From contig CANLUH010000006.1 of assembly GCA_947494205.1 (NCBI GenBank), positions 186,001 to 250,000 on the forward strand: 64,000 bases of DNA. Reading direction: 5' to 3'. Made by a program: the position numbers and the translations under genes. Source of the DNA: an uncultured Flavobacteriaceae bacterium (GTDB taxonomy: Bacteria > Bacteroidota > Bacteroidia > Flavobacteriales > Flavobacteriaceae). This document shows positions 53,601 to 64,000 of the stretch, one piece after another. Every line of letters begins with the position of its first letter. The stretch's first letter is position 1. Under the pieces are notes generated by a model. It saw nothing but the letters and a program-made list of their open reading frames with translations, ran no database searches and was not told the origin of the DNA.

Positions 53601-55343
<1,743 letters not shown>

Positions 55344-55529: not shown

Positions 55530-56582
55530 ATGGAAAATACAGTTATTATCAATTCAATAGGTACAGCTAGTCCTAAAGTATCTAAAGTTCTTTCAGAAGC
55601 ATTTAAAATCCCACAAGATTTTATGCTAAAATTATTATACACAGCACCTTCTGTACTATTTCAAAAAGTAGACGAAGCATTAGCTACAAAAGCCGAAGAG
55701 ACACTTTCTCAACTAGGTTTAGAAGTTAGTGTTCTAAATAAAGAAGACTCTTTAAACATTAGTAAAGAGCTAGTAGATGTAAGTATTTATTTTGAAAACA
55801 TTTTAAATCTACCTACAGTAATAGAACAATTATCTGACTTTTTAGGTTGTAAACAAGCCGAAGCTTTAAATGTGCTATTAGATCAACCTAGCATTATATT
55901 AGGAGATGTTTCTGTTGCAACAGCAGAGGCTCTTCAAAAAAGAATAAATGCTTCAGTATGTTATTCTAATCCTAAAAAAGACTTATTCACCATTACCATT
56001 TCTAAAGACATTCCAACGAATACTTTAAAGTCTATAGAAAAAAGATTAGGCAAAACGGCTAGCATTAATGATGACTATTTTGTTATTAAAGATCTTACTT
56101 ATACAGAATGCAGCACAATCTGGCGAGATGCACAGTCTAAAAAACAGATTAATATTATTAACCAAACGCATCAACTGGTTAGTATGGAATTAACTTCTTT
56201 TAATCCTGAGGATGCAAATCAAATTCAGTTTTTAACTCAAGAAGTTGGTATGCCTTCAGAAATATTACCAGAACTTAATAACAACTTACCCATATTACTT
56301 TTTGAAAACATAAGCGCTAAGCAAGCTAAACATTATAGTGATTTATCTAAAGAAGCTGGTGTTACAATTACTATTGAAACACAATTAAACACTAAAAAAC
56401 ATATTGCTATAAGTAATATTAAAAATCCTGAAAGTGTACTAAATATACTCTCTCAATTTATAGATACCAAAAACTTAAAAATAACTACAAACTGGAAAAG
56501 CGAAACTGCTTTCCCTGCTTTAATTGCTAGGTACTTACACAAACAGTTAGAGGAACTAGAGTGTAATTCGGAAATTATATAA
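55530..56582 (+). CDS. Cluster protein 1: tandem units resembling the bL12 C-terminal domain
   Basis: The 350-residue soluble protein shows at least three units with a common layout: helix, L-L-x-x-x-P, short strand, helix with Ala-rich face, then G-x-x-V strand. Examples begin IPQDFMLKLLYTAPSVLFQK (about 27), CKQAEALNVLLDQPSIILGD (about 107) and MPSEILPELNNNLPILLFEN (about 238). This resembles the fold pattern of the ribosomal bL12 C-terminal domain, which binds protein factors. There is no signal peptide. It leads the cluster, 3 nt before the next gene. The family is not recognised; the bL12 comparison is inference from pattern. Confidence 0.7.
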   Translation: MENTVIINSIGTASPKVSKVLSEAFKIPQDFMLKLLYTAPSVLFQKVDEALATKAEETLSQLGLEVSVLNKEDSLNISKELVDVSIYFENILNLPTVIEQLSDFLGCKQAEALNVLLDQPSIILGDVSVATAEALQKRINASVCYSNPKKDLFTITISKDIPTNTLKSIEKRLGKTASINDDYFVIKDLTYTECSTIWRDAQSKKQINIINQTHQLVSMELTSFNPEDANQIQFLTQEVGMPSEILPELNNNLPILLFENISAKQAKHYSDLSKEAGVTITIETQLNTKKHIAISNIKNPESVLNILSQFIDTKNLKITTNWKSETAFPALIARYLHKQLEELECNSEII

Positions 56583-56585
56583 GTT

Positions 56586-57131
56586 ATGGACGATAAAAAA
56601 ATGTTACATGTACGTATTGCCGAGCGTGGTAAAATGCATGCTTTAGATAAAAATTATAAAGAAGCTTTACGCCATTATAAAGAAGCACTTAGAATAGTAC
56701 AATCTCAAAAAGATAGCGAGTTATTTTTTCAACATTACTCGCAATGCGTTATGGAGTCGCTTGAGCAATCTGGCGCCAATAATGAGGTGATTTCATTTTG
56801 CGAAAATTATAGAGCTTTTTTAAAAGAGAAAGAAACTAACGATTTAGTAGATAAACACAATGCTTTTGTTTGCGAACGCCAAGCTATACAACATCTACTG
56901 AAAGAAGAAACTGATATGGCTTTAGATTTACTTCTAGAAGCAAAAACCAGTTTAAAAAAGCACAAACAACCTATAACAGAACAACTATTAAACTGGTTAC
57001 AACGTGGTTATAGTATTAACAAAAAACAAATACTAGGGCTACAAAAAAAACACAATTATTTTATAGTAAGGCAAGAATTAATAAATCCAGACATAGCAAT
57101 GGATTTACCCGAAGCCTTCTCAGCATTTTAA
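56586..57131 (+). CDS. Cluster protein 2: TPR-like helical protein
   Basis: The 181-residue helical protein lacks a signal peptide. RIAERGKMHALDKNYKEALR and HYKEALRIVQSQKDSELFFQ fit a TPR motif (about 8-42), and later helices (EETDMALDLLLEAKTSLKKH) suggest a second unit. The tail ends in NPDIAMDLPEAFSAF. It probably acts as a binding helper for a cluster partner. Gaps of 3 nt and 20 nt to the neighbours show one transcript. Confidence 0.7.
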   Translation: MDDKKMLHVRIAERGKMHALDKNYKEALRHYKEALRIVQSQKDSELFFQHYSQCVMESLEQSGANNEVISFCENYRAFLKEKETNDLVDKHNAFVCERQAIQHLLKEETDMALDLLLEAKTSLKKHKQPITEQLLNWLQRGYSINKKQILGLQKKHNYFIVRQELINPDIAMDLPEAFSAF

Positions 57132-57151
57132 CAATTTAAAAACAAAACAAT

Positions 57152-58969
57152 ATGTCAACGAATGTTCAAAAATTTGACGAAGGGTCAAAAATATTAAAGA
57201 ATATAGACGTAAGTAGCATTGTATCTGGGTTAGCATTAGGTATCGCAGAAGCTCAAGAGCGTTTAGATAACAATTCTATCTCGCAGTTAATACGTTTAGC
57301 AGACACAAAAGTAGCTGGTAAATCGCTATTAGAATTTGGTTTTCAGCCTGCTTTTTATGCCTTTGATTACGCTGATGTTTCTGCTTCTATACAACTAAAA
57401 ATGGCAGTTCAGGAATCTGTTTCTGTAGATTTTAGTATAGAAGCTTCTTACAGCAGTAATACTACTTTTAATAAGGATTTCTTTAATCAGTTAAGAAAAA
57501 ACAAAAGTAAATCGACAAGTAAATACTCTAAAACACAAAAAACAATAGCACTAGAAGCCAAAACTTCAAAAAACGTTAGTGTTAATGAAGAGTCGTTTAA
57601 AATACATGAAGAAGAAGGTTCTATTTCTAAAATAGAATCTGCTGAAGAAAAAATGCGAGACGATAGCGAAGAATTAAGAGTAGAAAGTGTTATAGATAAC
57701 AAACAAGAACTTACTAACGAAACCAATAGTGATGTTTACATTAGAGAAGAAAATGGCTATATCGTTATCACCAATCCAATAGAGCATACAAATGTAACAG
57801 CCTTATTAAAATTAGATCCAGATTATACTACTGCGAAAGATATTCGTATTAAAGGGGGAAGTACTGTAAACGCTTCAAGTCTTTTCAGTAAAACTGGTGA
57901 TTTTAACACAACATTAACTAATGCTACAACAGCTAATAATGGTAATTCTCCAACAACACCAGGAGAAGTTGTAGGTATTAATAAAAATGGTATACGAAGA
58001 GGGACTACAGATACACCTTATGCTTTTTATTTTGGTTGGGATAAACATAAAGTAAATTACGATTATGCTTACAATCAATCAAACCCATCTTTAACAACAG
58101 ACGATATCGAGCTGCTTGCTTTTGTGTTAAAAGAATCTACTTTAAAAATAACTATTAAAGGCTATACAGATGGCAGTGGAAGCGACTCTCAAGCAAACTC
58201 AGATTATAACAAAGCACTAGGATTAAAAAGAGCAACCGCATTAAAGGAAGCTTTAGAAGGTTTTGCTGGTAAAAAACTAGACAGTCAAATAACTACCGAA
58301 ACTTACGGTGAAGACTTAGCCACTAACAGCGATAAGTTACCAGAAATAAGAAAAGTAACCATAGAATTTGACGCCACTACCCTATTCGACTTTATTTATT
58401 TTCAAGGTGGGCATATTACAACTGGCGCTACTACATCTGCACCAGAAGAGTACGTATATCTATTAGCAACAAACCCTACTGTAGATAAAGATGTTATTTT
58501 TCAATTTGGAAGTACAACCTATACTTTAGTAGATATTGCTAATACTATAAATAGATTTTCAGCTCTAACTAATAACAAAGGAAAAATAGACGAGTTTTTT
58601 GTAGAAAAACATAACGAGTCTTACTATTTATTGCATGAAGAAGCTAAAGTAAATTACTTTTTACACTCTAAAGAGAATAAAGAAATAAACGTAGAAATAG
58701 AGAATAAAGCTTCTGCAGAACTAGACAAAGACAAGACAGACATTTACGTTAGTGATACACAGAATGATACCTCTAAGCTAAAAGAATCTTCAAAAGATTT
58801 TGAAGGTGACAGAGCATTCGCTGTAAGTGGTTCTTTAGACGTCCGTTATGCTAGACAATTTGGAATGTCTATAGAAGGAAACGCCTCTGTTTCTGCACGT
58901 ATGGTATCTGTTCCGCCACCAACAGCTTTAGAAAACTATATACAATCACTTTCTAATTCTGGAAATTAA
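57152..58969 (+). CDS. Cluster protein 3: family member with inserted OmpA-like domain
   Basis: The 605 residues have no signal peptide. Residues about 20-95 carry the cluster-family N-half (SGLALGIAEAQERLDNNSIS, LLEFGFQPAFYAFDYADVSA). A polar linker and small strand domain follow. Residues about 286-406 form an OmpA-like domain (TLKITIKGYTDGSGSDSQAN, KALGLKRATALKEAL). The family C-half ends the protein (about 550-605; RQFGMSIEGNASVSARMVSV, then PPPTALE). So the OmpA-like domain sits inside a split family domain. OmpA-like domains usually bind peptidoglycan in the periplasm, which does not fit a protein without an export signal. Confidence 0.75.
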   Translation: MSTNVQKFDEGSKILKNIDVSSIVSGLALGIAEAQERLDNNSISQLIRLADTKVAGKSLLEFGFQPAFYAFDYADVSASIQLKMAVQESVSVDFSIEASYSSNTTFNKDFFNQLRKNKSKSTSKYSKTQKTIALEAKTSKNVSVNEESFKIHEEEGSISKIESAEEKMRDDSEELRVESVIDNKQELTNETNSDVYIREENGYIVITNPIEHTNVTALLKLDPDYTTAKDIRIKGGSTVNASSLFSKTGDFNTTLTNATTANNGNSPTTPGEVVGINKNGIRRGTTDTPYAFYFGWDKHKVNYDYAYNQSNPSLTTDDIELLAFVLKESTLKITIKGYTDGSGSDSQANSDYNKALGLKRATALKEALEGFAGKKLDSQITTETYGEDLATNSDKLPEIRKVTIEFDATTLFDFIYFQGGHITTGATTSAPEEYVYLLATNPTVDKDVIFQFGSTTYTLVDIANTINRFSALTNNKGKIDEFFVEKHNESYYLLHEEAKVNYFLHSKENKEINVEIENKASAELDKDKTDIYVSDTQNDTSKLKESSKDFEGDRAFAVSGSLDVRYARQFGMSIEGNASVSARMVSVPPPTALENYIQSLSNSGN

Positions 58970-58984
58970 AACCAATAAAGCACT

Positions 58985-59467
58985 ATGAAAACTCCAGAAA
59001 TCGTACAAACGTTAATGAATGCGCCTCTACCGCTAATGTTAGAAAAACTAGGCGCTTCTATAGCAAATGCACAAACGGCTTTAGATGCTAACTCTATAAA
59101 GTTAGCCAATGAAATGTCTAATGTAGAAGTTGCTATTGGAGATGACACCTATAATCTAATAAGCCTAGGTTTTGCACCCACATTTTATGTTTTCACAGAG
59201 GCTTCTTTTGAAGTAAAAATGGAGTTTTCTATTGCAGAATCCGAAGATGTAGGCGTAAGTGGCAGCTTAAATTACGGAAAGGGTAAAAGTGACGAAACAA
59301 GTACACAAATGTTTGGCGTATCGGTTTCTGCTCATTATGCTAGAAAATTTTCTATGTCGGCAGAAGGCTCCTCGTCTATAGCAGCTAAAATTGTATCGCT
59401 TCCCGCACCAGAAACGTTCTACGAAATATTAAAATCGACACTCAACAAAACCGAAGACGATAAGTAG
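58985..59467 (+). CDS. Cluster protein 4: minimal family member
   Basis: The 160 residues are close to the bare family core. N-half: NAPLPLMLEKLGASIANAQT, ALDANSIKLANEMSNVEVAI. Middle: LISLGFAPTFYVFTEASFEV. C-half: SVSAHYARKFSMSAEGSSSI, AAKIVSLPAPETFYEI. No signal peptide. The helix-then-strand-then-helix layout suggests a subunit that assembles with its paralogues. It lies 15 nt after protein 3. Confidence 0.8.
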   Translation: MKTPEIVQTLMNAPLPLMLEKLGASIANAQTALDANSIKLANEMSNVEVAIGDDTYNLISLGFAPTFYVFTEASFEVKMEFSIAESEDVGVSGSLNYGKGKSDETSTQMFGVSVSAHYARKFSMSAEGSSSIAAKIVSLPAPETFYEILKSTLNKTEDDK

Positions 59468-59518
59468 TCTACGATGACCACAACACAAGAAATAAATGTT
59501 TAATTAAAAATGTAAATT

Positions 59519-60424
59519 ATGTTACACAGAAACCCAAGAATTGGGCAAGAATTACTAGATGTACCTATGGGAGACATGATTAGAGATATGGCATTCGCTA
59601 TTGCCGAAGCTCAAATCAAGTTAGATCAAAACTCCATGGAAGTCGCCGAAATGATGGGCGGATTAAAAACAATAACGCACACTGATCCAGATGGCAATGA
59701 GATTGTTACTTACGAGGACAGTCGTGTATTCTTTGGAAAAGAAAAACTCTTAACAAAAGACGCTGTTTCTGCTCACAATGCTTCAGACGATTTAGCTTAC
59801 AAAACAGAAATAAGAAGAGAACTAGGCTCAGGTAATTACGAGTACACCAATTTAAAAAACGAAACCACATTAGCTAGCTTACCTGCAACTCAACAAGAAG
59901 ATGCTGGCTCTAACAAATTAAAATACTTGTTTGCGCCAGCTGGTGCAGCAAAAGGATGGTACGTATGGAATGATACAGATGGTGAGTACCAAAGATTAAA
60001 AGCGACACCTATAGATATTAAAATAGCCCTTGCAGATGGCGTTGGCCCAAATGGAGACATTTTTGTATCCCAGCGTCTGTCTATGTTAGAACTAGGGTTT
60101 TCGCCAACAATGTATCAATTTGTTGACACTATTATAGAAACTAAAGTAAGTATTAAATATTCTAGAGAAGCAACTGCTAGTGTCTCTGTACAGAGAACAC
60201 GAAAGGATGGTTTATCGTTAAACTGGGGCAAAAATTTATCTTATAATAGAAACGTAACAACGTCTCAAGTTAATGCAACTTACGCTTCTAAATATAATTA
60301 CTCTGCTGAAGGTTCCAGTCTATTACGAACCAAATTAGTACCTATTCCACCACCAGCAATTTTAGAAGAGCGAATAGCACAACAAATGGAATTAGTAAGA
60401 CAAAGAAGCGGAAGCGAATCATAA
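59519..60424 (+). CDS. Cluster protein 5: family member with long insertion
   Basis: The 301 residues have the family N-half (DVPMGDMIRDMAFAIAEAQI, KLDQNSMEVAEMMGG), then an insertion of about 115 residues with HTDPDGNEIVTYEDSRVFFG and YLFAPAGAAKGWYVWNDTDG, then the middle block (LSMLELGFSPTMYQFVDTII) and C-half (ATYASKYNYSAEGSSLLRTK, LVPIPPPAILEER). No signal peptide. The insertion is strand-rich and unassigned. The gap of 51 nt before it is the largest in the cluster. Confidence 0.8.
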   Translation: MLHRNPRIGQELLDVPMGDMIRDMAFAIAEAQIKLDQNSMEVAEMMGGLKTITHTDPDGNEIVTYEDSRVFFGKEKLLTKDAVSAHNASDDLAYKTEIRRELGSGNYEYTNLKNETTLASLPATQQEDAGSNKLKYLFAPAGAAKGWYVWNDTDGEYQRLKATPIDIKIALADGVGPNGDIFVSQRLSMLELGFSPTMYQFVDTIIETKVSIKYSREATASVSVQRTRKDGLSLNWGKNLSYNRNVTTSQVNATYASKYNYSAEGSSLLRTKLVPIPPPAILEERIAQQMELVRQRSGSES

Positions 60425-60440
60425 ATATTAAGTAAACACT

Positions 60441-60941
60441 ATGGCTAATATAACTAGAGAATTATTAAACGCACCTTTACCAGAATTAGTAAAAAGTCTT
60501 GGAATTGGTATTGCACAAGCGCAAAGAGCTTTAGACAGAGTGTCTATGGATTTAGCACGAGAACTTGTAGACACTAAAATAGAACTTGGTGGTACAGAAT
60601 ATAGTTTATTAGCCTTGGGGTTTACCCCAACATTTTATCAATACACAGATACTGTACTAGAAGCTAAAGTTGCTTTTTCTATGACGAAATCTAGAGAAAT
60701 TGGAGTTTCTGCAACTGTTAGCGGTGGAGTTAATGTTGGTTTTGCCGCAGTAAGTGCCTCTGTAACGGCAAGCTACTCGCAAAAGTACCAATACTCTGCA
60801 GAAGGCAGTTCTTTAATACGCACAAAACTAGTATCTGTACCTAACCCTCCTGCATTCGAGCAACGTTTAAGAGCATTAATAGAAACAGAATTAGAAGACA
60901 GAAGAGAAGCTATAAACCCACCAAATCAAACCACTTCATAA
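60441..60941 (+). CDS. Cluster protein 6: minimal family member
   Basis: The 166 residues are the clearest copy of the family. N-half: LNAPLPELVKSLGIGIAQAQ, RALDRVSMDLARELVDTKIE. Middle: LLALGFTPTFYQYTDTVLEA, KVAFSMTKSREIGVSATVSG. C-half: SVTASYSQKYQYSAEGSSLI, RTKLVSVPNPPAFEQRL. The alternating small and polar residues in the centre suggest an amphipathic beta sheet. No signal peptide. It lies 16 nt after protein 5 and 10 nt before protein 7. Confidence 0.8.
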   Translation: MANITRELLNAPLPELVKSLGIGIAQAQRALDRVSMDLARELVDTKIELGGTEYSLLALGFTPTFYQYTDTVLEAKVAFSMTKSREIGVSATVSGGVNVGFAAVSASVTASYSQKYQYSAEGSSLIRTKLVSVPNPPAFEQRLRALIETELEDRREAINPPNQTTS

Positions 60942-60951
60942 TACTAATACT

Positions 60952-62244
60952 ATGGCAAAGCACTGGAAAGATTTAGTCCCTTCTAAAAAAGAAGAACAAC
61001 AAAAAGACACTGTTGACTTTTCAAAACTTTTACAAACTGACCCAAAACAAGAACAGGTTTTAGAAGATATATCGGGTGCTAACCCGTCCTTAAAAGCATT
61101 ATTAGAAGAACAAAAAACACTAGAGCAAAACATGGATGCGCTAACTGGTAAAAAACCAGAGCAATCCAATAGTAACAGGTTTTATGACAACGAAATAAAA
61201 AGTCCGTTAGAAAAACGAAAAGAAGAACAAAAACGAGAAAAAGAAAGAGCATCACATTTAGATGCCTTTAAACAAAAAAAAGTAAAGGAAAATAAATGGT
61301 TAGAAAAACGAAGTCTTAAAACCAATAAAGACACACGCCCTAAGCAGCCGGCAGCTAAACAAGCTTCAATACTTAAAAAAGTAGATGAAGCAAAAGCGTT
61401 TTACGACAAGCTAGATGCTAAACAAAGCAAACTAAAAGAAGCATCACGTTATAAAAAAGCAAATAGTTTAAACACAGTAAATACAAAAAAAACAGCTCCA
61501 ACACCTAAAAAAGAAAAAACAGCACTTAAAAATATTGCAAAAAAAATAGATAAAACAACGTCTTTTTTAAAAACACTAGACAATAATAAAACAGCATTTA
61601 CTAATATAAAGAAAGCACCTAGTAAGACAACTAAGAAAATAAAACCGTCTAAAAGACAAACTGTAAAAAAAGACCCTTTATTTAGTAATACTACTACTAA
61701 ACCGATAACAATAAAAAAAGCTATTAATACAGTTAAAACGGTTTCTAAAACTACAGATAAAGCAATACAGTTTTACAACAAAATAGGGGACACCTCTAAC
61801 ATAAAAAACAAATTAGCCTCTGTAAACCAATTAAAAACAAACGATACCATAAAAAGTAGCAATACAGAATCTAACTTAAATCTGGACCAATTAGACAATA
61901 AAAAAAGTAAAGTAGATTCTATTTTTAATACAGCTAATAAAACGAATAAAAAGGTAAAAACGGCAACTCAGTTTTTAGAAAACACCTTAATAAAAAAAGA
62001 ATCTTTACTAAAAAAAGAGCCTATAAAAGACACATCATTATCTACAGACATATTAAAAACGCTTTTCACGAAGAAAGAAAACAAAACCAATGCAAAAGGG
62101 TTTAATATAAATGTTAACGATGTAAAAGCAACAGTATCTAAACTAAAAACAATAAAAAAAGGAGTAGATAATTGGTCTAAAAAACGAGACGAACTTAGAA
62201 AAACTAAGAAAAAAGATAGCGGTACCTCTAGACTATCCGTATAA
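60952..62244 (+). CDS. Cluster protein 7: lysine-rich repeat protein
   Basis: The 430 residues are very rich in Lys, Asn and Thr and are strongly basic; low in hydrophobics, so likely extended or disordered. About five imperfect units share a K-x-x-D/T-x-A-x-x-F-x-x-x-L core: KKVDEAKAFYDKLDAKQSKL (about 141), KKIDKTTSFLKTLDNNKTAF (about 196), KTTDKAIQFYNKIGDTSNIK (about 266), NKKVKTATQFLENTLIKKES (about 329) and KTIKKGVDNWSKKRDELRKT (about 396). The N-terminus has KHWKDLVPSKKEEQQ. It may bind acidic partners, nucleic acid or other cluster subunits. Confidence 0.75.
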   Translation: MAKHWKDLVPSKKEEQQKDTVDFSKLLQTDPKQEQVLEDISGANPSLKALLEEQKTLEQNMDALTGKKPEQSNSNRFYDNEIKSPLEKRKEEQKREKERASHLDAFKQKKVKENKWLEKRSLKTNKDTRPKQPAAKQASILKKVDEAKAFYDKLDAKQSKLKEASRYKKANSLNTVNTKKTAPTPKKEKTALKNIAKKIDKTTSFLKTLDNNKTAFTNIKKAPSKTTKKIKPSKRQTVKKDPLFSNTTTKPITIKKAINTVKTVSKTTDKAIQFYNKIGDTSNIKNKLASVNQLKTNDTIKSSNTESNLNLDQLDNKKSKVDSIFNTANKTNKKVKTATQFLENTLIKKESLLKKEPIKDTSLSTDILKTLFTKKENKTNAKGFNINVNDVKATVSKLKTIKKGVDNWSKKRDELRKTKKKDSGTSRLSV

Positions 62245-62256
62245 AGAGATAATAAT

Positions 62257-62973
62257 ATGAGCACACAAAATACAGCACTAACATTAAAAGAAATACTACT
62301 AGGCATTTCCGATAGTTTAAACGAAGCCCAGCATCAATTACGAAATGCAGCACCTTACGATGAATACGGAAGACCTAATACATTATATACATTACCGTAT
62401 TTAGATTTTAATTTACAGGTAGAAGCCGAATTTGAAAATATAACAGACACAGAGTATAATTATGGCACCAATAAAACCGTAGGTAAATTAGCAACTACAG
62501 AAACTTATCAAGCTGCACAAAGTTACTTACCAGCACTATCTTTTCGTCCAGTAAACAAAAAAACATTATCTAAAGAAACCAATAAAATAACGAGTACTAT
62601 TTCTGGTCGTTTTGTAGCCGTTATGCCAAATGAAGGCTTACCTCAACTTATTATAGATGCTAAACCAGAACGTACAACAACAAATGGATTATATACTATT
62701 AATGTAGAAGTGTTTAATTCTGCTGGAGAAAAAATACCGAGTGCTTTAGTAGAATTTAATTATGATGTAAATAAAGCTAATCTTTTAAATCCAGATACAA
62801 CATTAAACCATACAACCAACTTTTTAAAGAAAGGAGAAATATTAACCGATATAGAAGGTAAAGTAAAAAACCAAATACAAATTGACACTACAGATTACAA
62901 CTCTAAAAGTATTATTCCTATTCTAATAAATGTAGGCACAGTATCTACTCAAATATCAATTCAAAAATATTAA
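62257..62973 (+). CDS. Cluster protein 8: divergent family member with C-terminal Ig-like domain
   Basis: The 238 residues start with a related helix (LKEILLGISDSLNEAQHQLR), a strand block (LPYLDFNLQVEAEFENITDT) and a C-half reminiscent of the family (TSTISGRFVAVMPNEGLPQL). Residues about 140-238 look like an Ig-like or invasin-type domain (YTINVEVFNSAGEKIPSALV, EFNYDVNKANLLNPD). No signal peptide. It is the fifth probable relative in the cluster, more distant than proteins 3-6. Confidence 0.65.
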   Translation: MSTQNTALTLKEILLGISDSLNEAQHQLRNAAPYDEYGRPNTLYTLPYLDFNLQVEAEFENITDTEYNYGTNKTVGKLATTETYQAAQSYLPALSFRPVNKKTLSKETNKITSTISGRFVAVMPNEGLPQLIIDAKPERTTTNGLYTINVEVFNSAGEKIPSALVEFNYDVNKANLLNPDTTLNHTTNFLKKGEILTDIEGKVKNQIQIDTTDYNSKSIIPILINVGTVSTQISIQKY

Positions 62974-62975
62974 TT

Positions 62976-64000
62976 ATGGCTACCGAATACAATGCATTAG
63001 TTTTTAAATGTTTGCTATTAGATAGCAAAAAAGAATCCGTAACTAATTTTAATTATGGGATTCAAATATTCAACAATCAGTTAAACAGCTGGCAAAATTT
63101 AGATAAACCTATTCTATCGGAAGATGGTAAATTACACTACACTTACAAAATACCAAGTCGTATTTCTACTTCCGATATTCAAAGAAGAGCCATTAGAGAA
63201 GTACTTCAAGCTAGTTGTATTCCTCAATTTAGATTAATACATTGGGACAAGGAGCAAGTATTCAATATTACTAATACACCTTCAATAATAGCAAATACAA
63301 AAGGAACTGTAATAACTCTAGATTTTAATACCTGCTATTTATTAAACGCAGAGCAGTTTTACGACACTAACGATGGTGTTACAATAGCACAGTCTGAAAG
63401 AGGTTATCTACTACAGCAACAACTTATAGATGTAACTACTAAGTTAGAAAATATTAAAGATAATTTTAATATTAAAACTGCTCAAGCACAAGAAACCATT
63501 GCAGCATTAAACAATAATTTAAAAGCAATTGAAGCTGAAAAGGTGGCTCTAGAAACGCAATTAAACACCTTACAAGATGCATTAGCAAACAGTAAAAATT
63601 CTGATGAAGAGATTGCTATTTTAAAGAAAAAGATTGAAGAACTAACTGTTAATATAGAACAACTTAAAACCGAATACAATCAATTAAAAGATATACTAGT
63701 AAACGAACAAAATAAAACGAAAGCTTTAGAAGGAACTGTAAATAACTTAAATATCAAACTAAAGAACAGTATTGCTGAAACAGATGAAAAGCAAAAAAGT
63801 ATTACTGAACTTTCTCAAGTTTTAGAAACAAAGAATAAAGAGATAGACACACTTAACGCTAAAATTGAAGAACTGAACACCTACTCTACTGCAGATAATC
63901 CAAATAAATTGGAAGCACAAAAAGTATACAGCAGTATTGTAGACGATATAGTAACTGCCGATGCGAAAATGGATAATTCCAGATTTAAATTGGCTAATAT
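62976..64000 (+). CDS. Cluster protein 9: long coiled-coil protein (partial at right edge)
   Basis: ATG at 62976 (2 nt after protein 8) opens a frame that stays open to the edge, 341 codons. Residues about 1-150 are strand-rich (LVFKCLLLDSKKESVTNFNY, GIQIFNNQLNSWQNLDKPIL). About 150-305 form a coiled coil (ENIKDNFNIKTAQAQETIAA, KIEELTVNIEQLKTEYNQLK). The visible end reads VYSSIVDDIVTADAKMDNSR followed by FKLANI, which looks like the start of another domain. It has no signal peptide. The full length and the rest of the cluster lie beyond the window. Confidence 0.8.
   Translation, partial: MATEYNALVFKCLLLDSKKESVTNFNYGIQIFNNQLNSWQNLDKPILSEDGKLHYTYKIPSRISTSDIQRRAIREVLQASCIPQFRLIHWDKEQVFNITNTPSIIANTKGTVITLDFNTCYLLNAEQFYDTNDGVTIAQSERGYLLQQQLIDVTTKLENIKDNFNIKTAQAQETIAALNNNLKAIEAEKVALETQLNTLQDALANSKNSDEEIAILKKKIEELTVNIEQLKTEYNQLKDILVNEQNKTKALEGTVNNLNIKLKNSIAETDEKQKSITELSQVLETKNKEIDTLNAKIEELNTYSTADNPNKLEAQKVYSSIVDDIVTADAKMDNSRFKLAN

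Follow-up and report, generated by a model that had tools for sequence, protein, structure and literature searches.

We describe an operon of ten genes that begins at position 55530 of a stretch of DNA of 64,000 nucleotides (nt), hereafter the window, which covers positions 186001-250000 of its contig in the 5.06 Mb genome of an uncultured Flavobacteriaceae bacterium. Seven of its ten products (proteins P3, P4, P5, P6, P8, the end of P9, and P10) share a common building block, here called the S module, which stays nameless in scans of four family libraries (Pfam, PHROGs, NCBIfam and PADLOC). P3, P9 and P10 in addition carry predicted wall-binding modules of the OmpA or PASTA type, and these are the best clue to function. 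We consider it probable that the products form one structural assembly and rather likely that wall binding matters to the system. Our overall reading is tentative and held at a little under even confidence: the operon would encode a multi-protein structure that is built in the cytoplasm, shows cell-wall-binding tips, is likely released or breaches the cell, and docks on cell walls.

Nine open reading frames (ORFs) of the operon lie on the + strand inside the window, with intergenic gaps of 2-51 nt. They follow directly on groEL (53709-55343), from which 186 nt separate them. The first-pass annotation, made from the window alone, had described at least nine co-directional genes in this place, and the DNA beyond the window brings the total to ten: the window edge cuts gene 9, and gene 10 lies just beyond, in the same operon (window-equivalent 64372-65043; L003:1372-2043), followed on the opposite strand by a gene recognised by eye as a LacI-type regulator, where the operon ends. 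Guanine-cytosine content is 0.325 in the operon against 0.319 in the window's first 55 kb, so the composition is the genome's own. When the ten proteins were scanned against the four libraries, only OmpA (P3) and PASTA (P9) exceeded their Pfam cut-offs, bL12 (P1) and TPR (P2) fell below theirs, and P4, P5, P6, P7, P8 and P10 gave no meaningful match; a credible enzyme family match was found in none of the ten. These scans tie most members to no known system, in keeping with the first-pass proposal of an undescribed multi-subunit system of duplicated small subunits and helpers. A literature search, made mostly with guessed domain terms and with thin coverage of subscription papers, found no description of the operon.

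The S module occurs bare in P4 (58985..59467) and P6 (60441..60941). P5 (59519..60424) has an insert in it, and P3 (57152..58969) is an S module interrupted by an insert of about 430 amino acids (aa) with an OmpA C-terminal-like domain at aa 318-398. In P8 (62257..62973) a divergent S module precedes a probable bacterial immunoglobulin-like (Ig-like) domain, P9 (62976..64000, continuing to window-equivalent 64358) consists of a coiled coil, a short S-like module and a C-terminal PASTA domain, and P10 joins an S module to a PASTA-like C-terminus. Identity to P6 is 40% for P4, 40% for P5 and 25% for P3. Comparison of multi-genome alignments with hhalign connected the S modules of P4, P5 and P10 to that of P6 (S4-S6 3e-52, S5-S6 4e-69, S10-S6 3e-24) and P3 to S4 (8e-20) and S10 (1e-12). 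S8 matched S10 at 2e-8 (95% probability), as did the P9 C-terminus at 6e-9 (96%). The membership of S8 and P9 rests on S10, because neither has a direct match to S6 (4% and 2%, respectively). One family in proteins 3, 4, 5, 6 and probably 8, as first proposed, is thus borne out by profile comparison and proves larger, with the addition of 10 and the end of 9.

An AlphaFold model of P6, built with 39 sequences, places helices at residues 2-9, 13-44 and 136-158, short strands at 46-49 and 52-55, and long strands at 70-87 and 112-129, with a mean predicted local distance difference test (pLDDT) score of 65.8, a predicted TM-score (pTM) of 0.41 and an unresolved tip at 85-119. The module is therefore modelled as a helix, a long beta-hairpin and a second helix. 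By alignment, the P3 insert falls at the hairpin tip, and the P5 insert lies between the first helix and the hairpin. Many of the top co-varying pairs in the S alignment (174 sequences, about 87 effective) join the two long strands in a hairpin-like manner, which lends the hairpin weak support, as mixed paralogues could produce the same pattern.

A profile of the A2 group (P6, P4 and P10) was scanned over a genome collection of 84,980 species, where 242 stretches fitted the pattern and 148 of them encode a relative. The 81 loci examined comprise 79 loci from the best 80 of these 148 relatives, the window's own locus and a Sphaerotilus plasmid; family profiles were built on 30 of the 81 and run over all ORFs. 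For GC-rich loci the earliest possible start codon was taken, and some protein lengths are therefore too long. All ten families are present in 60 of the 81 loci, and in 56 they follow one another exactly from 1 to 10 (26 Bacteroidota, 28 Pseudomonadota, 1 Gemmatimonadota and the window's own), with median intergenic gaps of -4 to 27 nt. Contig ends truncate many of the other 25 loci, and 11 show a different gene order, some owing just to overlapping long ORFs or to a second weak match. The ratio of nonsynonymous to synonymous substitution rates (dN/dS), computed for five locus pairs, is mostly <0.3, with exceptions for P8 (L036-L038, 0.87), P1 (L076-L084, 0.68), P3 (L015-L016, 0.45), P7 (0.37 and 0.40 in two pairs) and P5 (L076-L084, 0.35). 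Joint presence of the ten families in 60 loci, together with the mostly low dN/dS, leads us to regard the cluster as beyond chance.

Variation on this plan takes several forms. Short S proteins occupy the place of P3 in L078, L087 and L088, a short P3-like protein is found in L089, and the operon is rearranged in L062 and L086. The Sphaerotilus plasmid holds a small version of four genes in a row, of which the first two encode S proteins; by eye, the third combines a short S-like part with a P8-like C-terminal domain and the fourth is a coiled coil with a P9-like end. Variant or cut copies were also found in Actinomycetota, Verrucomicrobiota, Latescibacterota, Chloroflexota, Desulfobacteria, SAR324, Myxococcota and Acidobacteriota. 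With the exception of Desulfonema, these copies in further phyla sit on contigs of metagenome-assembled genomes (MAGs) and could reflect misbinning.

The operon is rare among close relatives: P6 is missing from 118 of 119 close genomes, the exception being the window's own. Across 296 genomes of the order, S was found in 2, and these two also have a full-length P1 (E 6.4e-92 or better), the next-best P1 match being at 4.7e-7. Weak P1 matches in 195 other genomes are, among the matches listed, about 75 aa long and mostly in ORFs of 125-150 aa; from their length and from the profile match of P1 to bL12 described below, they are probably ribosomal bL12. In a six-gene tree, read without a species tree beside it, three pairs each with support 1.000 join distant hosts, namely a Gemmatimonadales MAG (L072) with Halomonas, Roseomonas (L056) with a Lysobacterales MAG (L053), and an alphaproteobacterium (L074) with Marinobacterium; lateral transfer of the operon is likely, not proven. 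The operon of a record labelled Glaciecola amylolytica (L043, CP034120.1) groups with Fluviicola, and this record may be misnamed or the transfer recent. A search of 50,697 phage records with P6 returned no relative, and none of the 10 stretches in IMG/VR viral contigs that fit the S profile pattern was confirmed. Plasmid searches gave the one Sphaerotilus plasmid with P6 and nothing with P9 and P1 of L065. With no phage matches and a single plasmid, we rejected a phage or plasmid origin of the operon.

Domains added to the S module are consistent among relatives. The window's P3 matches Pfam OmpA at 9.5e-7 (29.5 bits, cut-off 27.2) and its P9 matches PASTA at 9.8e-9, also over the cut-off; its P10 has no Pfam match and its P8 no useful one. 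Scans at E up to 0.01 drew on 37 of the 81 loci, excluding the short P3-like protein of L089 and a P9 fragment of L052, and found OmpA in 34 of 35 P3 relatives, PASTA in 36 of 36 P9 and 26 of 37 P10 relatives, and the Ig-like domain Big_1 in 7 of 37 P8 relatives. P3 and P10 (72 proteins) were scanned jointly, as were P8 and P9 (73), and the split of domains between proteins was assigned from single-protein scans. The P8 of L065 reaches Big_1 at 1.4e-6, yet stays under the Pfam cut-off; searches of solved-structure sequences with P8 and P2 gave chance-level rows only. The Asp and Arg of the usual OmpA signature, two residues that in OmpA domains bind peptidoglycan, are picked up by a strict motif in 45 of 71 P3 proteins of at least 450 aa, the window's copy included. 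The first-pass annotation gave no name to the predicted wall-binding modules (OmpA in P3, PASTA in P9 and P10); gene 10 and the end of gene 9 lie outside the window. Its coiled-coil protein is P9, a coiled coil plus PASTA.

Judged by hydropathy alone (mean over 19 residues, limit 1.6, with no separate test for lipoprotein signals), neither a signal peptide nor a membrane helix occurs in the ten proteins; the first-pass annotation had likewise seen no signal peptide. In relatives the limit is exceeded by 0 to 1% of N-termini and by an inner stretch in 24% of P1, 12% of P8, 9% of P3 and 6% of P4.

Three proteins stand outside the S family; the first-pass annotation had proposed a bL12-like repeat protein for the first, which is supported, a TPR-like helper for the second and a lysine-rich repeat protein for the third. 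P1 (55530..56582) consists of about five tandem modules resembling the bL12 C-terminal domain. A P1 profile of 48 sequences matches the ribosomal domain over two stretches (1ctf at 2.5e-5, residues 8-78; 3j9y at 7.7e-5, residues 230-294), and the window copy alone scores 19.1 bits against Pfam bL12, under the cut-off of 25.9. With boundaries cut by hand into five modules, pairwise comparison gave 96% for modules 1-2, 97% for 1-4, 92% for 1-5, 92% for 4-5, 84% for 2-4 and 30% for 2-5; module 3 is weak (71% to module 4, <=33% to the others). Unlike bL12 itself, P1 has its modules in tandem, is encoded in a non-ribosomal operon and shows no other bL12 domain in the Pfam scan; an assembly factor or adaptor is a possible role. 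P2 (56586..57131), the TPR-like helper, is a helical protein with weak TPR matches only, namely to Pfam TPR_2 at 1.6e-4 and, for its relative in L087, at 8.4e-6, both under the cut-off, and is possibly an assembly helper. P7 (60952..62244), basic, lysine-rich and without a Pfam family, has a net charge of +53; its relatives (n=72) range from -4.8 to +14.4 per 100 aa, with a median of +5.6.

The insert of P3 does not follow the history of the rest of the operon. Between loci L015 and L016, P1, P2, P4, P6 and P10 are 86-96% identical and the ends of P3 80-95%, while the middle of P3 is 15-32% identical; P5, with an insert of its own, is at 67%. Among 16 loci compared, the P3 inserts of L016, L017, L018 and L026 form a class with 61-74% mutual identity, against 21-30% to the other 12 loci. 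The L015 and L016 inserts are 26% identical while P2, P4 and P6 are at 88-96%, and those of L016 and L026 are 65% identical; by P2, P4, P6 and P10 together, L016 and L018 are closest to L015, and L026 is closest to L011. Because insert classes cross the operon tree in this way, the P3 insert, or the whole of P3, has been exchanged between relatives. Such exchange favours a part that faces something variable, and the pattern fits a displayed, target-facing part.

The operon combines seven versions of a single building block with helpers and with predicted wall-binding parts on proteins that show no recognised export signal, and it includes no recognised enzyme. We read it as encoding a structural assembly made in the cytoplasm that would meet walls once it is released or breaches the cell. 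Its body would be formed by the bare S subunits (4, 5 and 6) through their helices and long beta-hairpins, and the decorated S subunits (3 with OmpA, 8 with the Ig-like domain, 9 with coiled coil and PASTA, 10 with PASTA) would sit at special positions and display their extra domains. P1, with its bL12 repeats, and the TPR-like P2 may aid assembly, and the basic P7 may be a scaffold or filler. From a cytoplasmic origin, the wall-binding parts could meet peptidoglycan only after lysis, membrane breach or some other exit, upon which the released or breaching structure would dock on cell walls. The product may take the form of a particle, a filament or a membrane-associated complex, as the first-pass annotation had suggested. 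How the subunits assemble and where each sits, how they leave, what they target and with what effect are points that we infer from this architecture. That the structure acts outside the cell that makes it we hold tentatively, at somewhat less than an even chance. Possible, at a lower confidence again, is the fuller picture of a new supramolecular machine, in which a hetero-polymer of seven S proteins with bL12-like and TPR helpers docks on peptidoglycan through OmpA and PASTA, swaps the P3 tip to retarget, and has spread laterally among Bacteroidota, Proteobacteria and other phyla.

The logic would resemble that of R-bodies or tailocins, with no sequence relation to either. Tailocins and extracellular contractile injection systems have many subunits assembled in the cytoplasm, and their target-facing parts are exchangeable; in the S operon, a putative assembly of its products would be the counterpart.

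Several observations weigh against a released, wall-docking structure. No lysis gene, secretion gene or ATPase was recognised among the ten genes, so that the operon offers no explanation of the exit route. When flanking genes were clustered into families, response regulators (11 loci) and long antisense ORFs (19) were the only ones to recur in >6 loci. Nor are OmpA and PASTA domains restricted to wall ligands, and the strict OmpA motif is missed in 26 of the 71 P3 proteins. The S model is of medium confidence with its hairpin tip unresolved, and Foldseek searches with it gave nothing at E <1.4 and, in a second search, helix matches only; this missing match does not show the S fold to be new. 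As to the exchange, the S halves of P3 in L015 and L016 are 83% identical, below P2, P4 and P6, so the move may have taken in all of P3 and not just its insert, and what an exchanged insert means for targeting is a guess, the OmpA motif being present in both insert classes.

Among the alternatives, an internal cell structure such as a filament, scaffold or inclusion, unrelated to walls and reusing OmpA, PASTA and Ig-like domains as protein-protein or small-ligand binders, survives best, and we regard it as unlikely. It would account for ten proteins without a recognised export signal or a recognised lysis or secretion partner, and for the coiled-coil P9, which varies in length up to 1546 aa in the manner of a spacer. 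Against it, three proteins have retained predicted wall-binding modules across phyla and 45 of the 71 P3 proteins show the Asp and Arg signature of OmpA, both hard to explain without a wall ligand. The R-body, another intracellular polymer, speaks for such a structure in that its RebB genes were found in 11 of the 33 S genomes searched, compared with 4 of 119 relatives, two sets that share the window's own genome and differ in taxonomy; in the remaining 22 of the 33, RebB was not found. Like the S operon, R-bodies comprise several small paralogous proteins without an export signal, are patchily spread and include no enzyme. Both systems occur in the window's genome, where the RebB genes lie on another contig (G000:C18). 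The ten proteins gave no match to RebB (PF11747) up to E 1 (for P9, among the best 25 of 33 families), and no S operon gene was noticed by eye in four R-body regions. Partnership with R-bodies as a mechanism was dropped on account of the taxonomically unmatched counts and the lack of S genes in those four regions. The genome's own R-body cluster (L122:7563-11649) has five RebB matches and several unnamed neighbours.

Less likely than an internal structure is a scaffold of the cell's own envelope, for which the proteins would need an unrecognised route into the periplasm, there to anchor a structure on the wall of the cell that makes them. OmpA and PASTA domains are commonly found in wall-tethered proteins, and the exact gene order is seen in Bacteroidota, Pseudomonadota and Gemmatimonadota, which have two membranes. 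The hydropathy test argues the other way, finding no signal peptide or membrane helix, with the qualification that inner stretches of some P1, P3, P4 and P8 relatives pass the limit; rarity and apparent lateral transfer also misfit a housekeeping role. We think it very unlikely that the operon serves defence or damage sensing, as a complex that would respond to wall fragments appearing in the cytoplasm when, for instance, a phage lyses the cell. Its rare, patchy and probably transferred occurrence, the presence of wall-binding domains in the cytoplasm and the exchanged P3 insert would suit such a complex, while a sensor with ten structural genes would be unusually large, no effector enzyme or toxin was recognised among them, and PADLOC returned coiled-coil matches for P9 and a weak GajA match for P2 (1.2e-4), taken as chance. 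A degenerate or distant phage tail, tailocin, extracellular injection system or gene transfer agent is the least credible alternative, since the weak PHROGs tail matches in its favour (P9 to tape measure at 5.9e-5, P4 to a minor-tail family at 0.01) fit coiled-coil or chance likeness, no tube, sheath, baseplate, ATPase or packaging gene was recognised among the ten in the four libraries, and the phage and viral collections held no P6 relative and no confirmed S module.

The first-pass annotation had also pointed to DUF2589 (PF11655), a lead that stands in part. No Pfam match to this family was found in the ten proteins up to E 1 (with the same bound for P9 as for RebB), a family search of the window's own genome found none, and a sequence search of solved structures with DUF2589 returned nothing. 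Profile comparison suggests a remote relation without proof: an enlarged DUF2589 profile of 27 sequences scored 34.2 with S4, 34.8 with S5, 28.9 with S6, 25.9 with S10 and 27.4 with S8, at probabilities of 4-37%, and among 39 unrelated control families 38 scored <=18.2 and one reached 30.7, a local likeness taken as chance. On this comparison we lean toward shared ancestry of the two. DUF2589 proteins are similar to S in length, show by eye the same order of landmarks (a 'PL...A..AQ' helix, strands, an 'ASY' strand and a 'P.GL' end with a helix), and likewise occur as neighbouring unequal copies. They differ in that the DUF2589 loci examined lack the ten-gene set and in that relatives occur on viral contigs (17 loci), where none was found for S. 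Searches for DUF2589 itself located it in 4 of 60 relatives and, within the phylum, in 9 of 198 genomes, as well as on four plasmids, in one phage record and on the 17 viral contigs. In Archaeoglobus fulgidus, the DUF2589-related genes AF0414-AF0417 rise in growth with lactate, and the passage that reports this assigns them no function (PMC3949148).

Some surroundings of DUF2589 stand out, the first two of them noted by eye. In a genome of the same genus as the window's (L097), two DUF2589 genes lie some kb after genes for proteins resembling extracellular injection system cargo and before endolysin-like and holin-like genes. A recurring trio (L096:8341-10522, L095:9147-10977, L098:8053-9967) joins DUF2589 to a protein with a similar starting helix and a helical protein, with a protease-like gene nearby in L096 and a patatin-like gene in L098. 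On plasmids of Vibrio tubiashii and a cockroach deltaproteobacterium (L145, L146), DUF2589 is a few kb from annotated peptidoglycan-binding protein genes.

A four-gene sensor cassette adjoins the operon on its upstream side in L015, L016 and L018 and encodes an unnamed protein of 220 aa, a membrane protein of about 215 aa, a histidine kinase and a LuxR-type regulator. Three of its genes resemble genes near DUF2589 in L096. The cassette lies away from the operon in the window's genome (L130:10153-12893) and is present in two genomes of the same genus without the operon; for one cassette gene there are matches in 22 of 119 relatives, the window's own included, many just weak. It was rejected as part of the system, as S occurs in 1 of the 119 relatives, the window's own, and the cassette there is on another contig.

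A set of ten genes ordered alike across phyla, most of whose proteins are nameless, is unusual. If its products form one assembly, it would be a bacterial structure that is not recognisably a phage tail, pilus, R-body or secretion system, and it poses the puzzle of predicted wall-binding modules on three subunits that have no recognised export signals. The operon may give the DUF2589 family a context, and the exchanged insert of P3 is a testable handle on the target.

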